DNA from: Rothia kristinae NBRC 15354
Lineage (GTDB): Bacteria; Actinomycetota; Actinomycetes; Actinomycetales; Micrococcaceae
Direction: 5' to 3'
Length of the DNA stretch: 64,000 bases
Assembly: GCF_001570865.1 (NCBI RefSeq)
Contig: NZ_BCSM01000004.1
Location: 62,001 to 126,000, forward strand
Numbering within the stretch: position 1 is the first letter of the stretch; the number at the start of each line of letters is the position of its first letter. The position numbers were made by a program, and so were the translations under genes. The notes under the pieces were generated by a model. That model saw nothing but the letters and a program-made list of their open reading frames with translations. It was not told the DNA's origin and did no database searches. Positions 18,311 through 39,498 of the stretch are shown in pieces.

Positions 18311-18409
18311 GCGACCCGGCGCATTCGTTCCCATCCCTCTCCTTCCTTCTCGCGAGGCGGCGCATTCGTTCCCGAAAATGCGGATTCTGGGTACGGATGC
18401 GCCGGGTCG
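18311..18409. repeat. CGTTCCC palindromic element, copy 1
   Basis: Forward copies ending ATTCGTTCCC finish at 18332 and 18373 (41 nt apart). A 15-nt centre (18374-18388) is followed by one inverted copy starting GGGTACGGATGCGCC at 18389. The inverted copy matches the first forward copy (CGACCCGGCGC...) better than the second, with two mismatches in 21. It lies 35 bases after the ykoC stop. The rest of the gap to 18564 shows nothing recognisable. Confidence 0.85.
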
Positions 18410-20884: not shown

Positions 20885-21087
20885 CGGCCCGGTGCTCTCG
20901 TTCCCGACCCCTCGCGACCCGGCGCTCTCGTTCCCGGTCTCTCGCGAGACGGCGCATCCGTTCCCATAATCGCGGTTTTCGGGAACGAGAGTGCCGTTTC
21001 GGCGAGGGATGGCCTCCCGTGTGGGAACGGGAGCGCCGACTCGGCGAGGGGTGGCCTCCTGTGTGGGAACGAAAGCGCCGGCCCGGC
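20885..21087. repeat. CGTTCCC palindromic element, copy 2 (three forward, three inverted)
   Basis: Forward copies end at 20905, 20935 and 20965 (exact 30-nt period). A 15-nt centre (20966-20980) separates them from inverted copies starting GGGAACG at 20981, 21023 and 21065 (exact 42-nt period, with similar GGCCTCCYGTGT spacers). The element fills the gap between the convergent permease and aminotransferase genes. Confidence 0.9.
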
Positions 21088-30672: not shown

Positions 30673-30730
30673 CGACCCGGCGCTCTCGTTCCCGAAAACG
30701 CGGAAAGTGGGAACGGATGCGCCGTCTCGC
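30673..30730. repeat. CGTTCCC palindromic element, copy 3 (simple form)
   Basis: One forward copy (CGACCCGGCGCTCTCGTTCCC, ending 30693), a 15-nt centre GAAAACGCGGAAAGT (30694-30708) and one inverted copy GGGAACGGATGCGCCGTCTCGC (30709-30730 region). It starts 24 bases after the AGCS stop and lies upstream of a same-strand gene. Confidence 0.85.
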
Positions 30731-30791: not shown

Positions 30792-31208
30792 GTGAGCAGC
30801 GATGCGAGCGACCGTGAATCTGAGCAGAACGGTCAGTTCGGGGCCGAGAAGGAGACGACGCCCGTCGTCGAGATGGTGAGGTTCCGCGTGATCGCGGGCC
30901 AGGAGGCGGCGGCGCGGGAATGGGTGGCGTACCTGCGGGACCATCCCACACAGTTCCGGGAGACGATGATCCCGGAGCGGATGCAGGTGGAGACCATTCT
31001 CAGCGATGAGCAGGAGGGCCGGCTCCATCTCACCTGGTTCTCTGTGCAGCTGCCTGGGGGAGCGCCGGTGCAGGACTCCGAACACGAGCTGGACCGGATC
31101 CACCTGGACTACTGGCGTCGGTGCATCGACCCTGACTGGGGGCCGCAGCGGCTCACCCCGGAAATCTTCATGACCTCCGAGCCTGTCCAGAGGGCCTTCG
31201 AGCAGTAG
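30792..31208 (+). CDS. DUF6176 family protein
   Basis: 138 residues. Matches the DUF6176 pattern: a ferredoxin-like start VEMVRFRVIAGQEAAAREWVAYL, MQVETILSDEQEGRLHLTWFSVQ, the diagnostic VQDSEHELDRIHLDYWRRCIDP, and LTPEIFM. Function unknown, cytosolic, no catalytic motif known. GTG 30792 is chosen because GAAGGAG lies 8 bases upstream; other in-frame starts further upstream lack a ribosome site. It is flanked on both sides by CGTTCCC palindromic elements. Confidence 0.85.
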   Translation: MSSDASDRESEQNGQFGAEKETTPVVEMVRFRVIAGQEAAAREWVAYLRDHPTQFRETMIPERMQVETILSDEQEGRLHLTWFSVQLPGGAPVQDSEHELDRIHLDYWRRCIDPDWGPQRLTPEIFMTSEPVQRAFEQ

Positions 31209-31236
31209 TCGAGAACTGCCCGGCTGCGTCATCATC

Positions 31237-31326
31237 GACTCGGCGCTCCCGTTCCCGCCCCTCCGCCGAGACGGCGCACCCGTTCCCGGAAACGCGGAAA
31301 GTGGGTACGAATGCGCCGGGTCGCGG
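31237..31326. repeat. CGTTCCC palindromic element, copy 4
   Basis: Forward copies end at 31256 and 31287 (31 nt apart). A 15-nt centre GGAAACGCGGAAAGT (31288-31302) is followed by one inverted copy starting GGGTACGAATGCGCC. The centre is almost the same as in copy 3. It lies between the convergent DUF6176 and trmB genes. Confidence 0.85.
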
Positions 31327-39366: not shown

Positions 39367-39498
39367 GCGAGACGGCGCTCTCGTTCCCACCTCTCACCGA
39401 GACGGCGCTTTCGTTCCCAGAAATCGGATTCTTGGGAACGAAAGCGCCGCCTCGGTGCAGGTGGGCGGGGGAATGGGAACGGGAGCGCCGTCTCGGTG
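39367..39498. repeat. CGTTCCC palindromic element, copy 5 (two forward, two inverted)
   Basis: Forward copies end at 39388 and 39418 (30 nt). A 15-nt centre AGAAATCGGATTCTT (39419-39433) leads to inverted copies starting GGGAACG at 39434 and 39475 (41 nt). The inner pair (CGAGACGGCGCTTTCGTTCCC with GGGAACGAAAGCGCCGCCTCGG) is near-perfect. It begins 14 bases after the clpB stop and lies before a convergent gene. Confidence 0.9.

Follow-up and report, generated by a model that had tools for sequence, protein, structure and literature searches.

Five intergenic gaps of the window, by which we mean the whole stretch of 64,000 nucleotides that was analyzed, carry the same construction, as the first-pass annotation had described. 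In all five, forward copies of a word are followed by a center of exactly 15 nt and by inverted copies. Array 1 (18312..18409; order >><) consists of forward words at 18312-18332 and 18353-18373, a center at 18374-18388 and an inverted word at 18389-18409. It is located in a tandem gap, 35 nt past the stop codon of a CbiQ-like cobalt transport gene. Array 2 (20885..21085; >>><<<) contains forward words at 20885-20905, 20915-20935 and 20945-20965, a center at 20966-20980 and inverted words at 20981-21001, 21023-21043 and 21065-21085. The gap is convergent and is flanked by the genes of an FtsX-like permease and a class IV aminotransferase. Array 3 (30673..30729; ><) is the minimal core of 57 bp, with a forward word at 30673-30693, a center at 30694-30708 and an inverted word at 30709-30729. 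Array 4 (31236..31323; >><) has forward words at 31236-31256 and 31267-31287, a center at 31288-31302 and an inverted word at 31303-31323. The centers of arrays 3 and 4 have 14 of 15 bases in common, and a DUF6176 gene (30792..31208, plus strand) lies between these arrays. No tblastn match to this gene was found in the syntenic stretches taken from the relatives G204 and G211. Array 5 (39368..39495; >><<) comprises forward words at 39368-39388 and 39398-39418, a center at 39419-39433 and inverted words at 39434-39454 and 39475-39495, and is located in a convergent gap 3' of a ClpB-like gene.

The annotation had also placed the arrays shortly after plus-strand stop codons, three of them in convergent gaps. 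Indeed, arrays 1 to 5 begin 35, 18, 24, 27 and 15 nt past such a codon, and a simple gene caller (a GC3 script) confirmed the three convergent gaps. At the Rfam gathering score no array was matched; the only matches in the window were a tRNA and a TPP riboswitch (RF00059, 14949-15053, 64.8 bits).

Copy number and architecture

The genome of the window (G000; 2.36 Mb in 36 contigs) was analyzed by seeding with exact words and scoring the surrounding stretches with a position matrix. This revealed 31 arrays that together comprise 127 words and 34 cores, a count that fully degenerate arrays would escape owing to the exact seeds. The core consists of two convergent 21-bp words (CGASNCGGCGCWYYCGTTCCC) flanking a 15-bp center with A/T triplets. 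The center measures 15 nt in 33 of the 34 cores and 14 nt in the other, and its composition is symmetric (purines, A/T triplet, G/C middle, A/T triplet, pyrimidines). A pattern search yielded 81 exact copies of GCGCHYYCGTTCCC and none of the reversed pattern, which is far above chance. Among the 127 words the blocks CGA, CGGCGC and CGTWCCC are conserved with degenerate positions between them, a conservation that is flattered, partly by construction, by the word matrix built from the 81 exact words. A resemblance to an ECF sigma -35 element or to LexA was considered and dropped.

Each array contains 2 to 8 words, the largest being composed of two adjoining groups. In 30 of the 31 arrays every group consists of forward words, one center and inverted words, and the order reverses only between adjoining groups. 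In the exception (L031:3148-3323), the last two words are forward ones and lack inverted partners. Decayed words were rare, with one single word above 14 bits across 320 kb of sampled stretches. A search allowing two mismatches was too noisy to be useful (2460 matches versus 1983 for the control). Most of this excess reflects base composition, since element-free stretches gave the same excess (330 versus 271), and weak extra copies are possible. The family amounts to far more than a few copies and its center is constant. These findings support the proposal of structured, selected-looking extragenic palindromes; the argument from covarying arms, which had been part of that proposal, found no support (see below).

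Spacing of the words

Same-strand spacings of less than 60 bp (n = 58) fell into two main classes, with 26 at 30-32 bp and 31 at 41-42 bp, and one spacing of 53 bp. The first-pass annotation had assigned periods of 30-31 nt to the forward and of 41-42 nt to the inverted words. Genome-wide this assignment does not hold, as both sides use both periods: forward spacings were 30 (eight times), 31 (four), 41 (13) and 42 bp (four), and inverted spacings were 30 (four), 31 (eight), 32 (two), 41 (eight), 42 (six) and 53 bp (one). The mean difference between the two main classes is 10.7 bp, which is close to one turn of DNA. None of 2000 random spacing sets (25-55 bp) was as periodic. When one spacing was taken per array, 25 of 25 fell at 30-32 or 41 bp.

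Linkers of equal length are mostly unlike in sequence. Consequently, the length of the linker is kept and its sequence is not. Words that follow each other on the same strand of an array resemble each other more than shuffled words do (P 0.004 and 0.008). A few linkers are clear duplicates, and array 2 has a pair of 21-bp linkers that hardly differ. Part of the fixed spacing could have been inherited through tandem duplication of units of one or two lengths.

Placement relative to genes

According to the simple gene caller, 12 array gaps are convergent, 16 are tandem and two are divergent, and one array lies at a contig edge. Compared with other gaps of at least 60 bases, divergent gaps are avoided (2/30 versus 63/233; P 0.008) and convergent gaps are favored (12/30 versus 34/233; P 0.002). 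Of 15 usable tandem gaps, 14 have the array closer to the stop codon upstream than to the start codon downstream. For 26 of the 31 arrays, a set without the two divergent gaps, the contig edge and two arrays with overlapping gene calls, the closest stop codon is at a median of 28.5 nt. The flanking genes code for ordinary transporters, enzymes and a few regulators. A Pfam search of 30 flanking genes, 28 of which matched some family, revealed no transposase.

Pairing of the arms and RNA structure

It had been claimed that the bases between the conserved parts vary but keep pairing. In three tests, however, the arms paired no better than shuffled arms. At the five variable word positions of the inner arms, 93 of 170 cells agree while 83.8 are expected (P 0.10). 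Without the core that has the 14-nt center (33 of 34 cores), 89.0% of the cells are paired compared to 88.3% after shuffling; 107 of 500 shuffles were as high in pair count, 48 of 500 reached the covariation score, and six pairs are changed on both sides versus 5.4 expected. All combinations of forward and inverted words gave 4.01 of 7 versus 3.86 for shuffled arms (P 0.18). This result weakens the case for an RNA structure. Because the blocks are conserved while the arms do not covary, the words look as if they were kept word by word and not as paired arms.

RNA folds of four of the five window arrays were more stable than those of shuffled sequences (z -2.9, -3.8, -4.8 and -13.0), which palindromes must show anyway. 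In one array on contig C2 (L031:7820-7876), changes in one arm are matched by changes in the other. Given this array and the fold stability, a role as a hairpin is possible. A T-run following the hairpin was observed at none of the 34 cores and none of the 31 whole arrays on either strand; a separate terminator scan admits only loops of 3-8 and could not judge these hairpins.

Distribution among relatives

The word GCGCNNNCGTTCCC occurs 86 times in G000 versus six matches of the reversed control. In 34 congeners it amounts to background, with 101 matches in total versus 96 for the control and at most nine per genome. A short core pattern of 14 bases was found 21 times in G000 and not at all in the 12 congeners of the family search. 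In other genera it gave one to three matches in 33 of 184 genomes, with centers unlike those of G000, and its reversed control matched in 13 genomes. A stricter core pattern detected one locus, in Actinorugispora, among 84,980 GTDB genomes, a set that may leave out records close to the window's own genome. This locus was rejected as a family member: its perfect palindrome is a different one, and 8 kb of sequence contained no other word scoring above 8 bits.

No comparable arrays were detected in 218 kb of G204 and 68 kb of G211. Three terminator-like hairpins of G204 have a 9-mer in common with the family. Several inspected orthologous gaps in G204 and G211 contain unrelated GC-rich hairpins instead, and the orthologous gaps of the relatives appear by eye too diverged for a base-level definition of empty sites. 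An intergenic run of about 30 C was noticed in G204 (L059, between 4480 and 5000). A plasmid or phage origin was also considered and rejected: array 2 with its flanks (231 bases) gave no blastn match in a plasmid or phage collection, and viral contigs did not contain the core pattern. As judged from these genome comparisons, the array family is species-specific. No title or abstract in our literature search describes it, a statement limited to that search.

Position on the chromosome

As the genome is fragmented, contigs were positioned through fragments of one to three marker genes each, which were matched to complete congeners and their distances counted from dnaA; the congener G206 matched 15 of 19 fragments and then five of nine. 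Contigs C11, C18-C21 and the fourteen smallest (C23-C36) were not placed. Placed contigs carry 29 arrays. All but one of these (28) belong to contigs with markers no more than about 0.41 Mb from dnaA; a marker stands here for a whole contig, and single arrays may be up to about 100 kb nearer or farther. C2 carries dnaA itself. The distances in G206 are 56 kb for C15, 161 and 311 kb for C5, 231 kb for C8, 282 kb for C14, 291 kb for C4 and 315 kb for C22, all of which bear arrays. Contigs without the exact word are mostly more distant: C9 (440 kb), C13 (598 kb), C3 (637 kb), C16 (777 kb), C1 (814 and 919 kb), C6 (992 kb), C10 (1010 kb) and C7 (1113 kb), in addition to the small C17 at 58 kb. One far array was found on C12, adjoining der, 709 kb from dnaA, and two arrays are on the unplaced contigs C11 and C21.

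In the congeners G201 and G197, the matched markers of the array contigs except C12 are up to about 0.41 Mb from dnaA, and the array-free C9 is at 0.56-0.59 Mb. The matched markers in G207 agree with the origin-proximal placement. Origin-proximal contigs make up 43% of the placed bases, which corresponds to a binomial P of about 1e-9 for the arrays; with neighboring arrays combined into groups assigned by hand (14 versus 1), P is 8e-5. The array on C12 and the small, origin-proximal C17 without arrays count against a domain around the origin.

Three further observations concern these contigs. A glycosidase marker of C2 is far from dnaA in G206 and G207 (70-72% identity) and about 52 kb from it in G000. 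Besides dnaA on C2, another, partial match to the Bac_DnaA domain was found at C8:12554-12862 (49.5 bits in a 331-aa frame). Inside the array cluster of C2, a parS-like 16-mer (L031:6263) shows two differences from the consensus.

Spread of the arrays and a second palindrome family

Arrays within 12 kb of each other have on average 8.7 of 15 center bases in common (25 pairs) versus 6.6 in 536 other pairs, and none of 5000 permutations was as high. The sharing of centers among neighbors suggests local copying. One 412-nt array gap corresponds to a 33-nt gap in G204. A RAYT-type transposase gene, which the first-pass annotation had suggested to look for, was not detected in G000 by PF01797; five of 14 control genomes matched.

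Recombination sites or gene-capture cassettes were considered on account of the gene between arrays 3 and 4, a two-gene block on C2 and an inverted segment on C8. On C2, genes for an MmyB-like regulator and a hydrolase are located between two similar arrays (L031:8503-10986), and neither was matched in the corresponding syntenic sequence of G204 and G211. On C8, the genes between two arrays stand in the opposite order in G204 and G211, and the ends of this segment coincide with the arrays (L037:5789-10408). The idea was rejected and the supporting cases are regarded as anecdotes, for synteny breaks are not enriched at array gaps. Over six loci, the genes adjoining an array gap are neighbors in G204 as well in 7 of 16 cases; for other gaps of at least 50 bases, this applies to 17 of 34 (Fisher P 0.46).

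G000 contains a second, unrelated and likewise species-specific palindrome family, which is absent from the window. Its word GGGTTCGTCGNTTCGGGAC occurs in 17 copies (at most one mismatch) at nine loci: three on C2 (L068; 130243, 141622 and 143389), three on C15 (L098, 14684; L099, 52896 and 55143), two on C11 (L097, 27.3 kb; L077, 42.6 kb) and one on C7 (L096, 28665). Six of the nine loci are on origin-proximal contigs, one is far (C7) and two are unplaced. The architecture is always one inverted pair with an 11-nt loop, located 25-36 nt past a stop codon in eight of nine loci. The word was absent from 33 of 34 congeners, and in G205 it occurs once, singly and with one mismatch. The presence of two unrelated palindromes in the same niche is in favor of palindromes spreading in this species by some general process.

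Possible role of the arrays

The first-pass annotation had offered three candidate roles: a 3'-end terminator or stabilizer, a REP-like mobile palindrome and a nucleoid-protein site. The last is the best of the three because of the helical-repeat spacings and the near-origin concentration, with a protein that is still hypothetical. We therefore lean, tentatively, toward a REP/BIME-like species-specific family in which the words are putative protein sites and the arrays would serve as boundaries where genes end close to the origin. Our reasons are the nesting of the words, their helical register, the independence of the arms and the concentration in one chromosome domain. The 21-bp word would be the DNA site of a putative sequence-specific protein, and two convergent words around the AT-flanked center would form the core. 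Further words would have been added on either side, partly by tandem duplication, each held 3, 4 or 5 helix turns from its neighbor. Several protein copies might then bind one face of the helix cooperatively and assemble into a single complex. The arrays would spread locally and persist where they are harmless, just behind stop codons; nearly all of those placed lie in the chromosome region close to the origin. The bound complex might act as a boundary at gene ends, either by blocking the passage of transcription or supercoils or by organizing a chromosome domain.

A rather doubtful alternative is that the arrays are selfish mobile palindromes without a host role, that is, short non-autonomous elements copied by an unspecified enzyme, inserted locally and tolerated behind genes. 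The location, the species-specificity and the shared centers of neighbors agree with such mobility, as do the 33-nt counterpart of the 412-nt gap and the second discrete palindrome family with the same placement in the same genome. However, no Y1/RAYT domain was detectable in the genome, and transposases were absent from the 30 flanking genes. A simple MITE would not be expected to vary in word count, to lack fixed ends or to keep a helical register, and few decayed words were seen.

It is unlikely that the arrays function at the RNA level, as bidirectional terminators or mRNA 3'-end stabilizers in the form of long hairpins. The short distance to stop codons, the excess of convergent gaps, the stable folds of the window arrays and the GC-rich hairpins in several inspected gaps of relatives would fit such elements. 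The arm covariation, on the other hand, did not exceed the control, and the T-run expected of a terminator was lacking on both strands at all cores and arrays. Helical spacing has no reason in a terminator, and neither has origin confinement, since gene ends exist everywhere.

The reading as protein sites could be carried further, to a version that we consider quite improbable. In it, the arrays would be landing sites of an unrecognized, putative origin-domain organizer that bridges phased multi-word platforms behind genes. This would be an origin-side counterpart of terminus organizers whose sites arose and spread in one species.

Comparison with known systems

Extragenic palindromes are commonly treated as either selfish REPs or terminators. 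The present family helps to separate these options, with no arm covariation seen, spacing that follows the helix and concentration in one domain. It also shows that a single species can have a repeat system of several words with no recognizable RAYT transposase, next to a second, unrelated palindrome family.

The REP/BIME sequences treated in PMC2817692 and PMC12306157 are extragenic palindromic words near gene ends, present in many copies and in composite arrays with conserved spacings. A repeated palindromic word, extragenic and near gene ends, is found in G000 too. In contrast to BIMEs, its words do not alternate in orientation but are nested (>>><<<) around one fixed center, and the arrays are helically spaced, origin-proximal and without a detected RAYT gene. 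A table of predicted REPs includes an Arthrobacter genome (PMC12306157); thus, predicted REPs in the wider group are not new. REPINs are described as two inverted words that form a hairpin and are tied to RAYT transposases (PMC3116915). The 34 cores resemble them in that an inverted word pair able to form a hairpin is the basic unit, but G000 has no RAYT, and multi-word nesting replaces tandem REPIN repeats. REPs tagged with CGTC or GTAG comprise many small families, the CGTC type lacking a dedicated transposase like the present family, with stems of 5-13 bp (GTAG) or 8-9 bp (CGTC) and the tag at one end (PMC3733652). The main text of that article does not contain Micrococc-, Actinobacteria, Kocuria, Arthrobacter or Streptomyces. 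The words of G000 differ in their length of 21 bp; they contain no GTAG, and CGTC only in GAGAC-type words, inside the stem. An unpaired terminal GTAG or CGTC tag was not found in the word columns. The arrangement of H-NS sites (PMC5418058) serves as background only.

The arrays also invite comparison with chromosome sites that are confined to one domain, tens of copies of one word being present in only part of the chromosome. Known domain-specific sites, such as matS/MatP, Noc sites and parS, are single short palindromes. The family in G000 differs from them by its arrays, their location at gene 3' ends near the origin and a protein that is putative, and a role in DNA-protein binding is directly testable with a 57-bp probe.
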